A stretch of DNA of 64,000 nucleotides from Acanthochlamys bracteata (lineage: Eukaryota > Streptophyta > Magnoliopsida > Pandanales > Velloziaceae), in the NCBI GenBank assembly GCA_019914995.1, contig CM034129.1:10285725-10349724 (forward strand), read 5' to 3'. Both the position numbers and the translations under genes were made by a program. Of the stretch, positions 1-43,700 are shown one piece after another. Within the stretch, counting starts at the first letter, position 1, and the number at the start of each line of letters is the position of its first letter. Under the pieces are notes generated by a model that made no database searches, was not told the origin of the DNA, and saw nothing but the letters and a program-made list of their open reading frames with translations.

Positions 1-580
1 GAAGGTTCAATGAAAATGGAGCCTTCAGCGCTATACCATCATATCTGTCGCTTGGATTCAGTTGCAAGTAGTTCAGGTGCAAGTTTGACTCGAGTTGCAT
101 TGGATATGTCTTTTTATTTCAGTTTACTGCTTTTCTCCTTCATACACGAAGACATAAAGAACTTAGAGGAGCGTCTTCTATTGCTACTCTTGTTAGATCA
201 ATTTGCAATTTAAGATAACAATATATGCATGGTAGCTTTAATGATCGGAACTTCTCTATGAAACTAACAGAAACTTCACTCATCTGAGTGCTGTGAAGAC
301 AAGACTGGGAAACTAGAGATGATATCTCCACCGATTGACTTTATTACATGGGGTATGAGTAATTTAGCTCGTCTGTCCTCACCAGCCTGGTTTAAAAGGC
401 CTATTCCCCAATGACTTATGGAGTTTTAGGTACTTGAGGAACATGATTTAGTGAGTAATACGTAACTTTAGGGGGTGTTCGCAGTTTGATATGATGATTT
501 AGAGTTACAGAAATGAACATATACTTTTACCATTGAGCACAAAACCATTCCTAAGTGGCCTTCGTCATGCATTCATGCAG
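1..580 (+). other. Unresolved upstream part of the first gene
   Basis: This stretch precedes two supported 3' exons and probably holds further exons or introns of the same gene. Short open stretches that read like protein occur in different frames: about 3-70 (containing AFSAIPSYLSLGFS), about 150-213 (HKELRGASSIATLVRS) and about 297-405 (MISPPIDFITWGMSNLARL). I could not join them in frame with good splice sites. They may be exons whose borders I missed, or remains of a decayed gene. Nothing in them identifies a family to me. Confidence 0.25.
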
Positions 581-928
581 AAGTTTCAGATCAGAACTTC
601 ACTGATGAAGAAGTTGAAAGGTTATCTTGCAGGAGAAAAAGAGTGAGGACATCATTTACTAATGGAGAATTCAGAGATCAAGTAATCTATGGACTTCTTC
701 TTTGTTTCTTTTTTTTTTCGCCTTCATTTTCTTTAATTTTTCTTTTTTATAACTTAAAGACATCGGACAATTTCTTTTGTTGAAAATTTTTACTGGCATC
801 TCCTTTCGAAATTTTTGCAGGTTGTTCCATCTGGGTTACCTTCTAACAAACCAAATTCTGAAGAACCACAATCAGATAATTCTTGCGTCAACAGAGAAGA
901 TGAAAAATCCCGGAACATCAAGCATTGA
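581..928 (+). CDS. 3' terminal exons of an unrecognised gene
   Basis: Two exons join in frame. Exon 581-681 follows a CAG acceptor and reads DEEVERLSCRRKRVRTSF, with two leading bases completing a codon from upstream. It ends at a GTAATC donor. Exon 821-928 follows a TTTTTGCAG acceptor at phase 0 and ends with TGA at 926-928. The tail is hydrophilic, rich in Ser, Asn, Glu and Lys, with a basic RRKR cluster that could act as a nuclear localisation signal. I do not recognise the family. The gene starts outside the window or in the unresolved segment before it. The strength of the call rests on the two consistent splice junctions and the single stop. Confidence 0.4.
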
Positions 929-2454
929 TACTAAAATTCAGTAGCTCACAGGGAAACAGAAAGAATTTTCCGTGCGGCCACTAAGCAGCTTTCTTTCTTT
1001 AACAGTTAACAGCACGAGTGGCACTTCAGATCGAGTCCAGCAAACTATGTTTTGCACTCTGCAGCATATGTTATGTTACTATATAAATGCTTGCTTCTAT
1101 TTGCTTCTCTTGAGCACTAGTATAGTATCTGGTACTACAGACTGCAGAGTAATCTTCAAAGAAGAAACTAAATCTTTTACATAAAATGTGTTCAGTTGAT
1201 TGTTCCAGATTGCATTGATGATAAGAGGTTCCACATTCAAAAAATGAAAAAATGCCACAAAATTATAATCAAGAATAACTAAATTGTTTAAAATATGAAG
1301 CAAACGCCTGCCAAGTTTCACCGCCACAATCCCGTACAAACACAAAACAAGAAAATTCCTGTAAATCCAAAAACAGTCCACACTCTTCAAATATTTGCAG
1401 CTGCTCTGCCTTTCTCCGGCGAAATCTTCCCTTCTCCATCACCACAACAACGTTTTCACTCTCCCAAACGAGAGTCGTAGATCAAGAAAGACAACAACTT
1501 CGAGATCGAGATCAGGCGGATGAGAGAGTTGTTGTGAGAGATTGAAGAAAACTTGGGTGATCAGTTGTTCTAATCTTTGGTTCCTGAAGATGTTCGGGTG
1601 TTTCAGAACGGTGATAACTCCGGCACGCTTGATATTAGACCAGGCAGCCATGGATCAGCTGTAAGATTCAAAATCTACGCAGTTCACTTTTTGTGTTGGT
1701 TGTTTTCTTAAAATAAAAATAAAAAAAAAGTATTTGCTTTTTCAATTGGGATTGTTGTGACATTACTTAGAAATTTCTGATTCAAGTTGAAATTGTTGAA
1801 ATTGAAGTGGTGACTGATTATTTCTTGAAAGAAAAACTGAGTAGCAGCTATTTGTTACTGTATCTACTTCATGATCTACTAATCTTGTAAGTTTTCGAAT
1901 TTGTTGTTTCTTGTGTTCAAGCCCTTGTTTGGTAATTCGTCTATTATATGTGTGTCTCGTGGCTCTACTGGAAATATAACAATGATGAAAAGGTAATGCT
2001 ATATCAATAATTCTTTTCTACCAACTCAGTGTCTCATTTGTGTCAGTTTTGATTAATCCGTTAATACATCTTATGTTGAACTATGTACTACCTTATCGAT
2101 ATTTGGTTGGATGCAAGGTGAGCCATTTGAGCAGAACTCTCAGTATTTGAGCCGAACGCTTTAGCATTCGTGAATTTGCGGTGCTGTTAGATTGCTCGAG
2201 TATTAGGCTAAATATGGCTTCCCCTTAAAATGTGCTTGTGTTAAAGCAGCTATAAGCGTTACCTAACATAGGCCTATAGACTTATTGTAGGCTTGCAGCA
2301 TCATTGCTTTGGTATATACGAATATGATGCATTCTATGATCATGCAAGCATCTGTTATTTCTCTGTAGAATGCAGACTCAGGACTTGCTCACACTTATGA
2401 TCAATGCTTATGCAGTAACTTTTGTGTATGCTTAAGCATGCTTGACCTGCTTTC
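929..2454 (+). other. Spacer with a possible leader exon
   Basis: After the stop at 928 the DNA looks like 3' UTR and spacer. At 1400-1660 a pyrimidine-rich, then GA-rich stretch resembles a plant 5' leader. It runs into an ATG at 1590 (MFGCFRTVITPARLILDQ) and a GTAAG donor at 1662. A reverse-strand open frame covers the same bases at 1439-1651. I could not find a second exon that continues the forward frame. It may be the first exon of a small gene or an untranslated exon. From 1700 to 2454 I see no coding structure. Confidence 0.25.
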
Positions 2455-3066
2455 CGGTAGATTTCATACTAGAATCATGGCTCCATTGCAAGCTTCCAAT
2501 GGGATCCCTCAACATAACTACAATATCTGCGTTCCCGAATGCCTCAACCAACGCTCCCCATCTCCTCATGGAGTTCATACAAAGCAGCCATTGTCTCCTC
2601 TTCTCATCATATAAATCTGCGTCCAAGGAGAGACCTTGTTCCTTACCCCGACTACCTTAAGGATTTCCACGAGGACACTAATCTGGATAAAATAAAGATA
2701 AGAGTTCTAGATACTGCAGGTACAACCATACTGGTCTATCCCTCTTCTTACAAGGTGCCATTTCTCCCACAGCCATTGACACTAATATAATGATTGCAGA
2801 AAAGATGGACAAAATGTTACGGAAGAGATAAAGGGCGGTCCATTGCCCAACTTAGCAAAGGAGAATGTTCGTATCTGGGTAGACAAATGTGCTACAAGTA
2901 GCAAGCAGTTGGACGGAACAGAAAGAACAGAATTGGTCAACAGGAGATAAGGTCATCAAGAACAAGACGATTGAGAATTGATCTCTCTGCAAATTTACCA
3001 AGACTGTTCGGTCAAGAAATCACAAACAAGGTGGTAGAAACTATACGAAAGGCTTACGGAGTATAA
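2455..3066 (+). pseudogene. Red chlorophyll catabolite reductase (RCCR/ACD2) relic
   Basis: RCCR reduces red chlorophyll catabolite to a primary fluorescent catabolite in plastids during chlorophyll breakdown. Pieces of the protein are readable in order but in different frames: PVDFILESWLHCKLP, SLNITTISAFPNAST and FIQSS from about 2455; RRDLVPYPDYLKDFHEDT from about 2625; ISPTAI from about 2762; IWVDKCATSSKQLDGTERTE from 2874; DKVIKNKTIE from 2949; and the C-terminus from about 2977 (PRLFGQEITNKVVETIRK, then AYGV and TAA at 3064-3066). At least four frame changes separate them, so no full product can be made. The N-terminal half and transit peptide are not visible upstream. The matching family motifs are recalled, not searched. 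The intact centrin gene just downstream makes this the expected RCCR position by synteny with Arabidopsis. Confidence 0.85.
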
Positions 3067-4938: not shown

Positions 4939-6555
4939 GAAAGTTATACTTCTAGAGTATCTTCAAGGAGAGAAAAGCCTAGAGGCCGTCATCATGGGAT
5001 ATCCAAGCAGAAAAAGCAAGAAATAAAAGAAACCTTCGAACTATTTGATACTGATGGTTCTGGTAGGTCGCAAATTTTGGATGTTCTATACATATTTGAT
5101 GTTGTACTTTGCTAATTGTTAATATCAAATGTATCCTTGTTGCTAGGAACCATCGATGCCAAAGAACTGAACGTTGCCATGAGGTAGTGTTTTGTCTTTT
5201 ACAATTTGTTCTATACTGCAAAGTTTTTCACTATGCTTTGGCACTTACTTGAGCTATCTTTTTGCAGGGCTTTGGGATTTGAAATGACCGAAGAGGTAAA
5301 TTGGCTGAATTAAGTCCTCTTTCTTAAGATACCTTTTCCCAGGCATTTTCTCATGCATTACCATCATGCCAGTTACATTTGGTCTTCTTTATTTATTTAT
5401 TTTATTTTTTATTTTTTGCTTGTAAAAAATGCTAGTCGATTTGTCATAGAAGAACTCGGGAAGGGAATATTAACATGTAAAGCAATTATTTTTTGTTGTC
5501 GATGGAGCTGACACGTTCAATGAGTTTTTCTGCAATTCCACTCTAGGTTTTGGGTAACTTGAAAGCCGAGATGCCATGGGCATTCATAGGCTTTTCAAAT
5601 TCCTCTTTCTTTGTAGATGGATTTGATTCTATCTCTGCTCACTGAGTTTTGGTTGTGGCATCTTCTTACTGTCTTCGCTATAGGCAAGACATTTATCTAT
5701 TGACTCAGCTATATGACTAGTATCAACATATTGTTCTACTGCTCTCAATATTCTAAACACACTCTAACAGTACATTATGTACTTCCAGCAAATCACTAAC
5801 ATGATTGCTGATGTTGACAAAGATGGGAGTGGTGCAATTGATTTCGAAGAATTTATGCACATGATGACCGCTAAGATGGGTGAAAGGGACACTAAAGAGG
5901 AGCTAATGAAAGCCTTTCATATTCTGGACCATGATGATAACGTAAAATTTTGAACCATTACCTTGTCTCTCCTTTCTTATATCTATCCGTGCCTAAACTT
6001 TAAGTCATTCCAGGGAAGGATATCTGGATCTGACATAATACCTATTGCTAAGGATTTGGGTGAGAGCTTCAGCACTGATGAGGTCAGCGAGATGATTAGA
6101 GAAGCAGATAGGGATGGTAAGTTTCATTTCCACTTTGAGTAGTTATACCTCTTATCCAGCTTTTCACAGTCTGGTTTTGTTGCTCTTGAAATGGAAAATG
6201 TGTGTAAGCAGTTTCTCCGTGGTATTAACTAATGAGTTTATGACCATTGTACGAAGGTATGCATTAACTAGAGTTTTCCAGTTACCGGAAACAGATAGGG
6301 AATCAGTTGTAAAAATTATGAGTAGTTACCGATACTGAAATCCTAGACCTCCTCCACCCTACAAGGATGGATGCTTGGGCAAACTTCAACTGTTGCTCAT
6401 TCCTTTTGATAATTGTTTTAAAAAAATCTATCAGTTAGACTATTTGTTTGTATACTGTTTTTCTTACATATATGTATGTTGACGATGCAGGCGATGGAGA
6501 AGTTGATATGGATGAGTTCTTGAGGATCATGAGGAGGACAAGCTACAGTTATTAG
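4939..6555 (+). CDS. Centrin (caltractin-like EF-hand protein)
   Basis: Centrins are small calcium-binding proteins. In plants they are linked to microtubule organisation, and the Arabidopsis CEN2 protein to nucleotide excision repair. Six exons join in frame: 4939-5062, 5147-5183, 5268-5295, 5789-5941, 6014-6116 and 6491-6555, giving 169 residues after an undefined start. Four EF-hand loops are visible: [36 protein letters not shown] and [12 protein letters not shown]. The third has Asp instead of Glu at loop position 12, as in other plant centrins. The basic N-terminus ([11 protein letters not shown]) and the C-terminus (MRRTSYSY) fit the family. The initiator Met must lie in an upstream exon ending at phase 0, because the frame is open to the acceptor at 4938 without an ATG. 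Family identity is very secure; whether it is the CEN1 or CEN2 orthologue is not. Confidence 0.93.
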
Positions 6556-11179: not shown

Positions 11180-12504
11180 AAACAGAATTTTGTAAAGAGA
11201 TAGAACAGAGGAACAACTTGGAGAGAGAGAAGAGAGAGGAAAAGAGAAGAAAAGATTTGAAGACAGTTGTCGAAATCGAATCTTTCTTCATTCTTTTTTA
11301 ATTTCAATCGATTCATGATCAAGAACTGTGTAAGTTTAATTCTTTTTCTTCCTTTTTTTTGTTCTTTATTTTAGTTCCTTAAGCTTTTTTGTGTTTCTGA
11401 GTTGAATTAAGTTTGACTTCAGATAAATTTTGGAGCTGGGTTTTTTAACTCTGGTTGAAATTGATCACCTTAGGCTTCTAGGGAACTTGAATTGAGCTGG
11501 GTTTCTTTGATAATTAAGAATTTTTATTTTTTGTTGGATTTGGTAATTTGATTTGTGTGCTAATTGATGTTAGTTTTACAAACATGCTGGTAGTTTAACT
11601 GTCTTGATTATAGTACAAGAACTGGTTTTGAATGAATTTGTTGAGTCTCTCCCAAGTCAACTCATGTAGTCTTCCTCAGAGTCGCTGGGAGCATCTGTAA
11701 CTGTACAGAATTTGGTAGTTGATAGTTTTTATAATTGGGGTATAAAGCTTTGTGTGATCGCTGTTTTGGAGTTGCAGTTAGTTCAACAATTGAAAAAAGC
11801 TATTGAATTTAATGATTTTGGTTTAAGACAGAAATGCACATCTATATATTGACTGGATTGGCTTGAGTGGTACCCAGAATATGATATGCATGTTAGGACT
11901 GATGCCTTTGGAAATGACCTTTTGCAAGGTTTGATGTTCTTAGTTAAGAACATCGTTAGATGCCATCATGAACATAGCAAGAAAATGTCATGAGCTGCTT
12001 CTGCAGTAGAATTACATTGATATATGGTACGCTAATGCACAGGACTTGCTTTGAAATTCGTTTCTGGCCTCATGCAGATTCAAGATGTTAGGTTCTTCTA
12101 GACCGAAGATCCATTCTTTCTCATTTCGTACACTAGATTTAGTAGCTCGTCTGGATTTCAGAACGAATTCATGGTAATGAGTTCTTGTTTAAATTTATTG
12201 TAGCTGGATGAGTTTGTTTTTATTGATGGAATACATGTGTAGGCCATTTTGTTGGGACTTCTTTTTCTAGACGAGCCATTTTGTAGGACTATTCTCAATT
12301 CATTATAGTAAAGTTTCATCGCCCTAATCTTTTTATGGTGAATGTTTATTGTTGCATCTTGGATGGTGGCTTCTGATTTAGGTATAGATGGAATTTGCAT
12401 TCTTTTGGAGTATTTATAAATTATAATGGATCGGTTCTTCTTACTTAGTCTCCTTTGTGAATGTTGTTTGCTTTTGTTCCTCAGCAAATGAATGTTGTCG
12501 ACTG
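11180..12504 (+). other. Intron-containing 5' leader of the WEB1-like gene with uORFs
   Basis: A GA-rich leader (about 11190-11329) ends at a GTAAGT donor at 11330. A second leader exon is likely at 12078-12173, between CAG and GTAATG. The main coding exon follows the CAG at 12482-12484. In the spliced leader an ATG at about 12085 (MLGSSRPKIHSFSF...) would run into the next exon and stop just before the main start. ATGs at 12488 and 12492 are also out of frame. These upstream ORFs could dampen translation. The exon borders are my reading of splice motifs. Confidence 0.45.
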
Positions 12505-15500
12505 ATGGATCATTCAGCACAATCGGATCGAAACTCTGGGAGTGTTTCTCTAGTACCAACGACAGCATCAGAAACTAGCAAAGACTTGTTGGTTCTTGGT
12601 GATGATAAGGTTAAGAATAATACTTCTTCATCTATTATTGATGAAAGCATGGTAACCCATCAGCAGAAGTCAGAGACAGAGGCTGCTCAGGTTCGACCTC
12701 CAGAAAGCAACCAATTAAAGCCTGTATTGTTAGAGAGAGCAAATGATACACCAACCACTGGCAGGGATGTGTTATCTACACCCAATGAAAGATCAGATAG
12801 CAAAGAGAATCATCATGAAAGTAATAGTGCTCCAATTGAACCTGTTGAAGTGCACAAGACAGAAGATGGTTCTCTTTTATCGGATGGGTTAAACGGCAGA
12901 CAAATGGAGGCTGGTACAAAAAACAAAGCACCTGAATCAGCAGAACATTCTAACAAGTCGGAGAGTGAGGTGAAAATAACAGAAAACACATTGGAACCAG
13001 GTGGCTCTTCCCTGTCTAGTACAGAAAACAAAGCACCCAAATCAGCAGAGTCTTCTAATAAGATGGACACTGAGGTGAAAATAACAGAACACACATTGGA
13101 GTCAGTTGACACTTCCTTGTTACCCAATGGTCTCACAGAAGAACCTAACAATATAAGAAAGCAGATAGAAAATGGAAAGTCTGTTACCACTGCTGGATTT
13201 CCATCTGATGATCACAAGATTGATTCGTGCCAGATAAAACAGAACAAAAGCGTGCCTCAGGTTTTGTCCAGTGAGCTCACTCCCCCTAAAGTTGTGAATG
13301 TGAATGCTCAAAAGAAGACACGAGATTTAAATAGTTCTTCTCCACGTGCACAAGAAGGCGCTGTTAACAGGGCTTTAGTAGACACCGCGGCACCTTTTGA
13401 ATCAGTTAGAGAAGCTGTCACAAAATTTGGAGGAATTGTAGATTGGAAGGCCCATAAAGCACAGACTTTGGAGGTATAACCGTATTCATTTCTTTACTCT
13501 TATGAACTGGGAACTGCAGAAAGAATATAAAATACAAACGGTTTTACAAATAAATATATCTTTGAACTTCATCTTCAGTATAATACTATAATTGTACAAA
13601 AGCCAATTTGAATGCATATATTCCACGAACCACAAGAAGATAATAAAATTGTTTGTGTAATATCCTATGTAAGTATATCTACTGTGTTTTTGTTTCTAAG
13701 TTTTGCATATTATGGGAAACCGTGTTTTTTTATTTACAAGACAAGTATCTCATTAGGATCATCAGGTTTAGTGATAATCAGTGTATTACAAAGTGGATGT
13801 CATTCTTGTGTCATTTTATTTTGATGAAGCTTACATCCTGTTGTTCATTTCAGAAGCACAAAAATGTTCAAGTTGAACTTCAGAAAGTCCAAGAGGAAAT
13901 CCCTAAAATCAAAGAGCAATTTGAAGTCTCTGAAACTGCAAAAGCTCAAGTTCTGATGGAACTAGATGCCACCAAGCGACTCATTGAAGAATTGAAGCTC
14001 AACCTGGAGAGAGCTCAAACTGAAGAGGGCCAGGCCAAGCAGGATGCTGAACTTGCCCAACTGAGGGTCGAAGAATTGGAGCAAGGAATAGCTGAGGAAG
14101 CCAGTGTTGCAGCAAAGGCGCAGCTTGAAGTTGCCAAAGCAAGGTATGTGGCTGCAGTTGCAGATTTGAAATCAACGAAGGAGGAACTAGAAACATTACA
14201 ACAAGAGTATGCTTCTATAGCTAATGAAAGGGACATTGCAATTAAGAAAGCTGAAGAAGCTGTGTCTGCTTCCAAGGAGATTGAGAAGACTGTTGAGGAC
14301 CTAACTCTTGAACATATCACTGCAAAGGAATCACTGGAATCAGCACATGCTGCACACCTTGAAGTAGAAGAGCATATAATTGGTGCTTCCTTGGCAAAGG
14401 AGCAAGATATCTTGACTTGGGAAAAGGAGCTCAAGCAGGCAGAGGAAGAAATGCAGCAGCTCAATGAACAGATTTTGCTGACAAAGGATCTCAGGTCAAA
14501 GCTAGACACAGAATCCAGGGTGTTGCAGAACCTCAAAGCTGAATTGGCTGCCTACATGAAAGCAAAACTGAACCAGGAGGCCTCGAACAAAGAGGAAAAA
14601 CAACAAAGGGAGGATGCACAAGGAGAAAATCAAACAATTTCATCTTCAGAGGCAGCTTTGGCTTTAATCAGGAAGGAGCTTGATGAAATAAAGGTAACCA
14701 TTGAGAATGCAAAAGATGAGATAAAGTGCCTTCAAGTTGCATCTTTATCCCTGAAATCCGAATTGGAAAAGGGGAGAAGTGAACTTAATTCCATGAGGCA
14801 AAGGGAAGGAATGGCATCAATAGCAGTTGCTTCTCTTGAAGCTGAAGTTAGTAGGGTGGAAGAAGAAATAGAACAAGTTCGAGTGAAGGAGAGGGAAGCA
14901 AGAGACAAGATGGTCGAGCTGCCCAAATTATTACAACAAGCCGCCAAGCAGGTGGATGAAGCAAAAACAGCTCGGCAGCTAGCACAAGAAGAACAAAAGA
15001 AGGCAAAAGATGAATTGGAACAAGTCAAAGTTAGCACAAGTGTCATAGAAAGCAGGCTGATTGCTGCCTTAAAGGAGATAGAGGCAGCCAGGGCTTCTGA
15101 GAAACTGGCGCAAGCTGCAATCAAGGCATTAGAGGAAAGTGAGCAGGCGACTTACACAGGAGGTGAGGACTCCCCTACTGGAGTCACTCTTCTGTTAGAT
15201 GAATACTACAATCTTAGCAAGCGAGCTCATGAAGCAGAGGAGCTTGCCTTCATGAGAGTTAACACTGCTGTTGCTCAAATTCAAGTGGCCAAAGAATCTG
15301 AGCAACAAGCCTTAGCGAGATTGGAAGAAGCTAACAGGAAGATGGTTGACAGGAAGGAAACATTAAAACTCACAATGGACCATGCAGAGAAGGCCAAACT
15401 AGGAAAATTGAATGCAGAGCAGGAACTTAGGAACTGGAGATCGGAGCATAAGCTAAGAAGAGCAAGTGACGCTGCTTCAGTTGGAGCTTTTCCTCCGAGG

Positions 15501-15725
15501 AGCAACCCGACTAGTTTTGAAGACAGCAGAGAAGAGAAAATTTTCAGCAGAGGCGAGCCTTCTGCTGTTTCAGTTCATCCAACACCAAAACCTGAACTAT
15601 ACACACCTACTACTAATAAAACCGATAACCTGCTCAAGGATAAGAAGCTGAGGAAGAAGAAATCCCTATTTCCTCGACTCGCTACTATGCTATCAATGAA
15701 AAGGGCAGCACATCCAGCAAAGTGA
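12505..15725 (+). CDS. WEB1-like coiled-coil protein (DUF827/WEB family)
   Basis: WEB1 (weak chloroplast movement under blue light 1) acts in the cytoplasm with PMI2 to keep up chloroplast photorelocation speed through actin control. Two coding exons join at phase 0: 12505-13473 and 13854-15725, about 946 residues. The first 290 residues are low-complexity, acidic and Ser-rich. The signature [20 protein letters not shown], then KAHKAQTLE, closes exon 1 and leads into a coiled coil of roughly 450 residues rich in Glu, Lys, Ala and Leu ([16 protein letters not shown] and onward). The C-terminal tail is basic ([15 protein letters not shown]). Arabidopsis WEB1 is shorter, about 800 residues; part of the difference is the disordered N-terminus. 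The start at 12505 is the first in-frame ATG after the acceptor. The reading frame upstream of 13854 is intronic and should not be taken as coding. Confidence 0.92.
12918..13127 (+). repeat. Two-copy 105-bp in-frame repeat inside WEB1-like exon 1
   Basis: Two tandem 105-bp units (about 12918-13022 and 13023-13127) encode 35-residue repeats. [20 protein letters not shown] is matched by [20 protein letters not shown], followed in both by a TE(N/H)TLE block. The period is a multiple of three, so the frame is kept. It lies in the disordered N-terminal part and explains some of the extra length of this protein. Confidence 0.85.
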
Positions 15726-19680: not shown

Positions 19681-22429
19681 TCATTGAAAATTCCGGCGAT
19701 CCGTGATTTTGATCTGCCAGTGGCCGTCGGTGTACCCGTTGTCTTGCGCCTTATCTCGTTCTTCAACCAAATCAGCTTTCCTTTGTGACGAAAGCCTGCA
19801 AACTCCATTGATCAACCGTTGATCGATCTCATCGTACATCTTCCACCACCGCCGGTGTGCAGTATCGCTCGCGTAAACCCTTTGATCGTCGACGTTCCAG
19901 TTACAGTCGTAGTCTCTGTAACATAACCACGGCTTCAATCCTAAATAGTGCACTGCGTAAGCGGCCGGCGGATCTGCGGCAAACATGTGGTTCTTCACCA
20001 TTGTTTCCGCAGATGTATTCGCCCAGAAGTTCTTTAAGTAGTTCACTCGCCGTGGTAACCGGTGCCACCACACGAAAACTTCGTTCAAGAAACCCTGATC
20101 ACCGCCGTTATACGAAACAACTTCCGCGCGTCTACTCATCAGCACCTTGAACGTGTTCTCCGACGGTTCTATAACCATGACACCGGAGTTGAAAATAACA
20201 CCGTCATTGCCGACAGCAGACATCTCCGGTAATGTAAACAAGAAGTCGAGGTTGCGTAAGACGAGAATGTCGGCGTCGATGAAGACGAGTTTACGGTACT
20301 GCGTTAACTGCCATAAACGGAGCTTGCTGTAGTTGTACTCGTTGTAGGATTTCGTCTTCGCCTTCGGGTTTCGAATTCGTTTGATATTACGGAGCTTCCA
20401 TCCTGCAGCGGCTAGAGCGTTAAGCTTCCGGCCACGGATAGTCCTGTCATGGAGGAGGATCAGGTCCCGATGAGACCCGCTTTGGCGGATGCTATGAGCT
20501 AAAACTACAGCGCCGCAGACGTAGACATCGGAGGAATGTAGGACCGTGACGTAGGCTTCCGGCAGCCTAGGGTTCGCCGGAGTAGCTAGCTTAGATAGGT
20601 CCACTTCTTCGTTGCCTTCTGTAATGTTTTAAACGGGAACATTATTTATCTGAATCCTATGACTATAAATACATGTTAATATTTTCACCTTTTGAAATAA
20701 ATTTCTTACAGTATCTAAATTTTTTATAAAAAAATTAATAAAATATAATTATGTATAATTTTTTTAATTAAAATAAGTCAAATTTATCTTTCAAAAATTT
20801 AAACATAAATATTTTTTTTAAATACTCCAAAACTTTCTCTTAATCTTATGATTATAACTATATAACAGATTTATCTAAAACTCTTACGACATGCATGCAC
20901 GTGTTATGTCAAACATTATTAATTAATCAATGACTGTTTGTGGAATTATTGGTTAATAGAAAGATCAAACTAACAAGTAACTGATACAAACTAATAATAC
21001 TAACTATAAAAAATTGTTTTATATAACGTCACGCCTTAGCAAAGCAAAAATATTTAATCATAATAACATGGTTAGCTGTTATAGTTTTTGAATGTTTAAT
21101 TGTGTACCTAACTTTCAGATTTCATTTGCTATTAATTTTTTATCTGAATCGATAATTTAGTTTATTTTAATTATGACATGTTCTAATTGAAACTTACTTT
21201 TTATAAAAAAATTTCACATTAAAATTTTAGTTTATTTTAACTGCATAGCACAGCTAATCAAGACACCAATTTAAATCTAAACAATCATAATCCTAACAAC
21301 TAAAGAGCTGAGCAGATTTGGCATATGACTCAATTAAGTAACTACAATTAAATTATTAATAAATTTATGCAATTATTCAACAATTAAATCTATAAAATAA
21401 GACAATTAATGTAAATAAATAACATAATAATTTTTTTTTGTTACCTTCTTTCCAAAGGGGCAAGGCAAGCTTGCAAGAACCAACAGGCAACTTCACCTTG
21501 TCTTCCAACCTTGTACCATCAGCTTCATAGAACCAGAACTCACCTTCCCTCCTCACCAAATCATCACTGCTAAAAACTTCAATCATCGGCCGACAAGTTC
21601 CGGCAATCACAAGCCTAACCTTTCCATTCCCATCCCTCTTCCCTTTCCTCGCGGCCACGTTCGCAGCAGCCAAGTGAACCTGAAATCTGTGCACGTCTCG
21701 TGCCCAATCTTTCTCCGGCCACTTGCATTGAACTCTGGCAACGATCACATCTATGTCTTCGGTTATGTTGGATAACTCCGGCATAGGTAGCTCCGGACAT
21801 AATGCGCCTTCGTTCTCTTCTTCTTCGTCGATCCATTCTGGAAACAAGTGTTTCCATTCCAGGGTTTCAGGGACTTTCTCGAAGCTCACCTGTGTAACTC
21901 TAGCAGTAGTACTACTCTTCCCGATCATCTGCCATACTGCAGTGTCTTCGTCTCCGATGTTTATTAACGCGATTTTCGGATCTCGAGGCAAGTCGGCGAC
22001 GAAGTTTGTCAGAGAATTGTTTAATATATAATTCCTCTCCTTCGTCTTCTTCTCTTCATTAATACTAATTCCTTCTTCAACCTTTCAGAACAAAACTAAC
22101 AAAAAAACATTACTAATTTGCCATCATCATTGAACAACAAAATCTTCAAAAAATTATCAGAAACAATTAAAATAAAAACAAGATTGCATGCATATAGTAG
22201 CTAAATCATAAAAGTTTAATTACGAGAGAAATTAAAAGGTTACAACTTACCTTACCTGATCATTATTGTCAGAAGAAGGACAGTGATGAAGAAGAAAATT
22301 TTCAGAGAAGGGTGATGGTGTTTGGAGAAGAAGGAAGATGTAGATGAAGATGAAGAAAGCAAGGCAGCAAACAAGATTAATCTTGATGTTCGCAAGAGGT
22401 TTAGAGCTTGATGACATGATCGTCTTCAC
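19681..22429 (-). CDS. GUX/PGSIP glucuronosyltransferase (GT8)
   Basis: Enzymes of this clade add glucuronic acid to xylan from UDP-glucuronate in the Golgi. Three exons on the minus strand join in frame: 22429-22256, 22081-21445 and 20618-19681, giving 582 residues. Residues about 15-35 are a single hydrophobic anchor (LVCCLAFFIFIYIFLLL), which fits a type II Golgi protein. The GT8 domain starts near residue 285 (EAYVTVLHSSDVYVCGAVVL). The metal-binding DXD is DAD at about 385-387 within FIDADILVL. NSGVMVIEPS, NGGDQGFLNE and HYLGLKPW are the further conserved blocks of glycogenin-like GT8 enzymes. Length agrees with Arabidopsis GUX proteins (about 550-660). A second in-frame ATG lies four codons after the first. 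Intron 2 (21444-20619) is AT-rich with no other features. The exact GUX number is not resolved, and activity toward xylan is inferred from the family. Confidence 0.93.
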
Positions 22430-40725: not shown

Positions 40726-43700
40726 TTAGTTCAATTCTCGTAACAACTTCTCAAGTGCTTCTGACGTTAGAGGTATATAGAGACAGTCCTGGCCATCCAA
40801 ATGCCTTCTGGTTTTCACTAGCTCATGGTCTTTGAACTCAGTGAGATGAGAATTGAGGGTAATTTGGCTGCTAACCAGAAAAAGCTCACGGGATGTGGTG
40901 TACAGAGTATTGACAGGCATACCTGAGAAAGCAAATACAGCACGTACAGCCTACATGCAGAAAGAAGTTTTTCCAATAAAAACAAGTTATGGAAGAATGA
41001 CTTACCTTCCTCTTTTGGGTTGGCTAGCTGATATTCTGCAAGAACCTTGAACACACTCTGCGCATTCGGGGTCAAACTCTGTAACACTATCAACGCAGTT
41101 CTAGTAGTTTGTGGCGCCGTGCCACTAGCTAGAATCAATGGGTAAAAGATACCTTCCACTTTATAAGACTGATAGGTGGGAACATGGTACCACAACCAAT
41201 TGAACTGCATATGAACCATCTTCTTATTCCACACTGGTGCAATCAAATAGAGATCCATGTCAATAGGAACTGTCAGTATATAAGTATTAAAACTAAATGT
41301 AGAATAGCTTCATCAATGTAGAAGCACTTAAAGAGCTCAGAAAGAAATTTCATGAGAACAGATTCCACATTCATCCTGAAGAAGGGAATTAGTAAAGATG
41401 CCTGGAGATAACATACATAAAGTGGTGTTAACATGGTCCATGGAAGCAATCATACGAACATGAGAAGAGCATGCCATTTGTGCGAGATACTGTTGAGATT
41501 CTGAATCTCGCAAAGCTGGTCCATCGATATTGTGGACAACAACGCACACAAAGCAATCATTCTCATCAGAATCTGGTCTATTGAGAAATGAGAATACATG
41601 CTCCATATTCTGTGAGCTAAACTCTTGGACTTTGGACTTGTTCCCTGACGAATGTTTCCTTGTAGCTTTCTCTTGTTCCTGCAGAAGTTCTGCAGTAGTA
41701 ACAGCAACCTGCAAAATAAGCTCATCTGTAAAACAAATGATATAGTAGAAACATAACTGCATTAGATAGACTACTCCCCTATAAGTGCCTCAGGAGACGA
41801 AGGAATACAAGTTGAGATAGTGCTTTTCCACCCCAAAAACCAGCAGTGTTTGCAAAGGTATTCAGAATGTAGAAGCAAAAAAGAAATAGACATACTCTGA
41901 TGGCTTTGAAAAGATTACATATCTAAAAAATTCGTTCTCTGCATAATATGAGCCTCAGAAGAAAAATAATTTAAATTGTCGTAGTAGAAATAAACATTTA
42001 CCACAGTATCCTTGTCGACTCTGAAATAAACATTTTGTCGAGACTAGTTAACCAATCCTATATGCCATAGAAGCTCGACAGACAAAAAAGTTATGGGACG
42101 GATTCATACAAATTGGTCATTGTTAATACTACTAAGCAGCACCTGAATGAGATTCATGCAGATTAGAGCTTGATTGCTGTCTATAAACTATGCAAGAAAA
42201 TAAAAACTTGAGTTATTACTCGCATACAGGAAACTACAGCTAAGTGAAGAACATGTATAACAAAAACTTAATGGAAACTTGAAAGATGACAATGCAAGGA
42301 AACTAAACCTAATACATCAACTAGGGAGGATGCCAGATGAGAAAAACCAAATCTACAACTTTGAAAGTGTGCTCTTTTACGTCCTAGTAGATAGACATAA
42401 AAAACCAACATCAAAAGTCTCAAGCCTTAAACTTTGAAGTCGTGAACATGGCTAGAATAGGTCGATCAAAACAATAATAAGAACGCCTCACAATTGAAAT
42501 CCCTATTGTATAAGATTCCGTGATGTTCAGGTTTTTAATTTTATACCAATTCTATAGCAACAACGACAAGAAAAGAGCCAAAAAGTAACTTTTGTAGCTG
42601 AACTTTTGGCTACGATGAATCTAAAAACGATCAGTAAGTGTGTCAGGAAACAAAACTATAGATATAGTAGTTCGAACCTACACCATGAGAACCATCAAGT
42701 TATGATGATGACTAGGAAAAGTATGAGTTTTACTTAGGGCGTATTTCAAACGCCCGTAATTCCACTTTTTCTCGCCAGATTTGGAGTTCCAAATAGTTCA
42801 TATATTTCATTTGCATAAGGAACTCAGGATTCCACTTCCACATGCAAAACTCCAGTTTCAACTTTCTTATTTGCACACCTCCCAATGCAATTCTATCTTT
42901 CAATTTTCAACTCACTTCCAAAAACTATTGAAATACAAAAATTTGAACTCCACTTCAACTCATTTTTCAAGAAACTCTACTTCCTACTTTTCATTTTTAT
43001 GAAACTCAGTTACGGATGTTTGCAACACGTCCTTAGAGAAAAACTATTAGAAGGAATTTTAAAAACTGCAATAATTAATGAAAATGTATCACTAGTCAAA
43101 AGTAATACTTGTTTCATGTTGACAGAAGGGAGATAGCCATTAATTACGACCACACCATAAGCAGTTAATGCTATTGAAGCAAAATCTTCAAGCAAGAACT
43201 TTTTAGAGCCAAAGCCATACATCAAGAGGCCAAAGCCACACCTGTAATAGAGGAAAGGGATATTTCACAGATCTTCAAAGAATACTATGTTGTCATGTTA
43301 TTCGTTTCTTAGGTGAACCAATGACTGAAATAAAAGCACTACACAGTACAAATTACAGTCAAGTTCCTCATATATAAGGAACATCAATTAGATAATATTA
43401 TCAATGTATACAGGTAACTATTGCTGTTATTGTAATAGGAATACAGGCTCCTTGCTGGGGGTACATATATATGTCTTCAAAAGAAATTTGCATTATCAGG
43501 TTTTTAGAATGCTAAGTGAAAATTTATTCTTTTAATGTTCAAGCAGAAGCACTGCCAGTAAAGTTGAATAGTTAGTAATTGACTTCAGTGAACTACAGAA
43601 CAGAGGTTTATCAAGAATATTGCAGCAAAAGAAATGAAGTCTCTTACCTTAGCTCAACAAGCCAGTTATGGTAGAGATTTTTATAGCTTCGTAACAAAGA

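Follow-up and report, generated by a model that had tools for sequence, protein, structure and literature searches.

A decayed duplicate of RCCR/ACD2 beside a centrin-type gene in the genome of Acanthochlamys bracteata

RCCR and duplicated pseudogenes in plants

Red chlorophyll catabolite reductase (RCCR) detoxifies chlorophyll breakdown products at the step from RCC to pFCC, and duplicated pseudogenes are known in plants as remnants of the gene loss that follows genome duplication. In the portions of the literature available to us, Arabidopsis RCCR is given as At4g37000 (PMC2716323) and its expression as constitutive (PMC3572010), two stereospecific classes of RCCR are described (PMC4950323), and soybean has RCCR1 and RCCR2, with expression measured for both (PMC4736698). 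The literature found on red chlorophyll catabolite reductase together with pseudogenes describes, as far as its available text goes, no RCCR pseudogene, and a literature search on RCCR/ACCELERATED CELL DEATH 2 as a single copy found nothing.

Here we analyze a broken RCCR copy within a window of 64,000 nucleotides from A. bracteata (GCA_019914995.1, contig CM034129.1, hereafter C4), and compare it with an intact copy on another large contig of the same assembly (C6). The locus resembles RCCR/ACD2 of Arabidopsis (At4g37000; family PF06405; structures 2ZXK and 3AGA) in that both of its exons match the intact copy on C6 and its pieces match PF06405, but differs from it in having no readable frame and in the changes to its start and splice acceptor. 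As in soybean, going by the available part of that report (PMC4736698), more than one RCCR gene lies in a genome with past duplications, although here one of the copies is broken. With post-duplication plant pseudogenes the locus shares a collinear block, one complete and one decayed copy, and a dS within the range of its neighbors, and nothing was found that sets it apart from them; the relic is a routine duplicated pseudogene in an ordinary setting.

Structure and lesions of the relic

Judged by its sequence, the forward strand of the window at 1396-3066 is a nonfunctional duplicate (pseudogene) of RCCR/ACD2 consisting of two decayed exons, and it would be expected to make no protein. Lesions were counted in an alignment to the intact C6 copy, with the C6 reading frame as reference. 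Exon 1 (1396-1660) has an altered start ATG, a 22-base deletion and two stops in the aligned frame, TGA at 1535 and TAA at 1571, while the donor GT is kept at 1661. The intron that follows (1661-2456, ~0.8 kb) is 67.8% identical to that of the intact copy (466 of 687 aligned bases), and its acceptor AG has become CG at 2455-2456. Exon 2 (2457-3066) carries eight indels, seven of them frame-breaking, together with three stops at 2693, 2699 and 2708, and keeps its terminal TAA. Across both exons, which are 82.6% identical to those of C6 (717 of 868 aligned bases), the ten indels measure 1, 22, 1, 2, 1, 3, 2, 2, 1 and 1 bases, nine of the ten not being multiples of three, and each of the five internal stops arose by a single-base substitution. 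No single open RCCR frame runs through the relic, as the nine frame-breaking indels and five internal stops interrupt it.

Similarity to the RCCR family extends over most of these remains. A PF06405 profile search of the genome matched exon 2 at 2454-2597 (E 5.1e-16) and 2608-3051 (E 9.5e-12), with a further match in this exon at E 4.2e-8, and exon 1 at 1520-1678 (profile positions 6-60, E 4.2e-5); in a protein search of the genome, exon 1 also matched residues 21-102 of the C6 protein with 51% identity (E 1.9e-14). When the frame pieces of exon 2 were scanned singly, four of five matched PF06405 (E 8.4e-19, 1.1e-6, 1.5e-6 and 1.2e-7), the exception being 2691-2831, and the exon 1 piece at 1574-1711 reached 17.8 bits on its own, below the Pfam cut-off of 24.9 bits. 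Read through their stops, the relic pieces cover profile positions 6-60, 54-102 and 106-253 of 253.

These results bear out much of a sequence-only reading of the window, which had recognized a frameshifted RCCR copy at 2455-3066 beside centrin. The family match, the frame-breaking indels and stops that make it a pseudogene relative to C6, and the neighboring EF-hand (centrin-type) gene at ~4.9-6.6 kb are all found, and the frame changes it had placed at about 2600, 2700-2760, 2945 and 2975 fit those seen against the intact copy at ~2587, 2609, 2689, 2737, 2789, 2941 and 2976, plus the in-frame loss of three bases at 2715. It had also described the N-terminal half as missing. This does not hold, as the decayed exon 1 is recognizable upstream of the intron, which was probably overlooked.

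The intact copy and the duplicated block

The search for other copies covered the whole assembly (195.5 Mb, 557 contigs). RCCR loci were found only on C4, within the window, and on C6, whichever of three queries was used: these two account for 6 of 6 PF06405 profile matches, 8 of 8 C6-protein matches and 2 of 2 relic-DNA matches, and no third locus was found in the 557 contigs. The C6 gene lies on the reverse strand at C6:707310-705666, with exons at 707310-707023 and 706274-705666, a GT-AG intron and an 897-base coding sequence of 298 codons plus stop. Its protein spans PF06405 positions 1-253 of 253 (E 5e-113), and its matches among solved structures are three distinct sequences, all of them RCCR chains (E 3.2e-74 to 8.7e-74). 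The catalytic Glu and Asp, which we take to be E154 and D291 of Arabidopsis RCCR, are both conserved at the aligned residues, as read from a structure-sequence alignment with a numbering offset of 43 applied by hand. We would expect the C6 copy to be expressed and active.

At the position of Arabidopsis F218, presumably the residue that steers pFCC stereochemistry, the second exon of the intact gene (C6:705666-706274) encodes isoleucine, and the 3AGB sequence has valine there. F218 is not mentioned in the literature found on RCCR stereospecificity.

Two other members of the chlorophyll breakdown pathway belong to the PaO and Staygreen families. The family profiles, which could also pick up related proteins that have other roles, gave six PaO matches in the genome and 22 exon-level Staygreen matches on contigs C3, C5, C16 and C18. 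Several of the Staygreen matches lie on C3 and C18 and may point to extra copies, unlike RCCR with its one complete copy.

The surroundings of the two RCCR copies correspond as well. Based on tblastx pieces above 60 bits, and with C6:620501-740500 as the stretch compared, the window contig from -27.8 kb to +64 kb relative to the window start shows inverted collinearity, with gaps, to C6:725.9-661.4 kb, a block of ~92 kb on the window contig. The order is broken by a piece at 34.9 kb that matches C6:690.5 kb out of order and by one at 42.7 kb that matches C6:664.7 kb both out of order and in the opposite orientation, and the last two pieces (63.3-64.0 kb) also lie in the opposite orientation. 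Upstream, the two RCCR copies share a neighbor, part of which occupies 1-900 (+) of the window and which may be a cold-regulated, COR27/28-like gene; the piece of its open reading frame (ORF) on C6 has no Pfam match. Downstream of each lies a centrin-type EF-hand gene, in the window at 4942-6555 (+), where six coding exons are seen downstream of a further first exon. RCCR and centrin are presumably adjacent in Arabidopsis too (At4g37000 and At4g37010). The relic thus has an intact paralogue within a collinear block, and by these comparisons the window and C6 copies are a segmental duplicate pair of which one readable gene is left; the duplication was probably whole-genome in nature.

Elsewhere in the window, ORFs at 13647-15725, 19681-20628 and 41337-41789 match WEMBL (E 1.3e-194), glycosyl transferase 8 and ORC2, and no tblastx piece above 60 bits was found for them in C6:620501-740500, an absence that the loss of one copy of several genes would predict. 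A 105-base unit is repeated in tandem (two copies, 82% matches) at 12914-13120, inside a 350-codon ORF at 12427-13479 that directly precedes the WEMBL ORF. Tandem-repeat, tRNA and Rfam scans of the window gave nothing bearing on the RCCR question.

Constraint, time of loss and alternative readings

Over 278 codons, with gapped codons and stops left out, the relic and the C6 copy differ at dS 0.437 and dN 0.133, which shows past constraint on the RCCR pair. Eleven neighboring block pieces give dS of 0.18-0.60, and the five with dN/dS of at most 0.33 give 0.39-0.60, a range that includes the relic's value; the pieces behind these estimates are ungapped tblastx matches, of which some may be in the wrong frame, and one has a dN/dS of 1.36. 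Set against Arabidopsis at 242 sites, relic and C6 agree with each other at 184; the Arabidopsis residue is shared by C6 only at 20 (including one stop in the relic) and by the relic only at 3, and all differ at 35. Conserved residues have been lost disproportionately from the relic, 20 against 3.

Estimates of neutral divergence for RCCR disagree, with dS at 0.437, intron divergence at 0.42 and fourfold sites at a corrected 0.30 (21 of 84 differing), and the time of loss is therefore loose. A simulation at a neutral divergence (K) of 0.44 predicted 113-122 replacements under full freedom (lowest 95% bound 97), against 74 observed, which suggested a late loss. This suggestion was weakened by a wider grid fitted jointly to the 74 replacements, 5 stops and 146 base differences, which shows dependence on K, the fitting unconstrained share being 0.4-1.0 at K 0.30, 0.4-0.7 at K 0.37, 0.3-0.6 at K 0.44 and 0.3-0.4 at K 0.50. 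With some uncertainty, the relic may have spent 30-60% of its time as a duplicate without constraint at dS 0.44, and 40-100% at 0.30. Function was probably retained for a while once the gene had been duplicated, and the fit at K 0.30 also allows loss soon after duplication.

We are highly confident that the C4 copy is the decayed member of a collinear duplicate pair whose C6 member was kept complete. A segmental duplication, probably whole-genome, would have produced two collinear regions, each with the upstream neighbor, RCCR and the centrin-type gene; at some point the C4 copy would have been freed from selection and acquired frameshifts, stops and changes to its start and splice site, while the C6 copy would have kept its complete enzyme frame.

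It is improbable that selection maintained both copies through more than half of the period following duplication, perhaps with tissues or a chloroplast/mitochondrial role divided between them, before one was lost, or that the relic survives as a regulatory transcript. Continued transcription of the relic as a noncoding RNA acting on its intact partner, for which the exon identity between the copies and the kept splice donor might speak, is very unlikely given the changed splice acceptor and heavily lesioned exons; the Rfam scan found no family at gathering score in the window, which says little on an undescribed RNA. Still harder to credit is a working second RCCR whose frame changes stem from errors of assembly or sequencing. 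Such errors would accord with the single-base size of five of the ten exon indels and with the past constraint on the pair, but the lesions also include five substitution stops and a 22-base deletion, both atypical of homopolymer error, three 2-base indels and an altered start and splice acceptor, and the decay of residues common with Arabidopsis is biased toward the relic. Moreover, the six centrin-type exons next door show no indels against C6, by eye on the alignment, compared with ten in the RCCR exons. Because of this mix of lesions and the indel-free neighboring exons, assembly error is unlikely.

Loss of RCCR from the species, and with it the step from RCC to pFCC, which the sequence-only reading had raised should no intact copy exist elsewhere and which the broken window copy alone might suggest, can be dismissed in view of the complete C6 gene with its full-length family match and the PaO and Staygreen family matches also in the genome. 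At the level of sequence, no RCCR step is missing: the complete C6 copy is present in the assembly and the gene is not lost. The interest of the finding falls accordingly, as it depended on there being no other copy, and a false alarm is removed. The decayed copy is one example of a chlorophyll-detoxification gene that, once duplicated, went back to one readable copy. It also cautions that a relic at a conserved position can be mistaken for the loss of a pathway step when its intact duplicate sits elsewhere.
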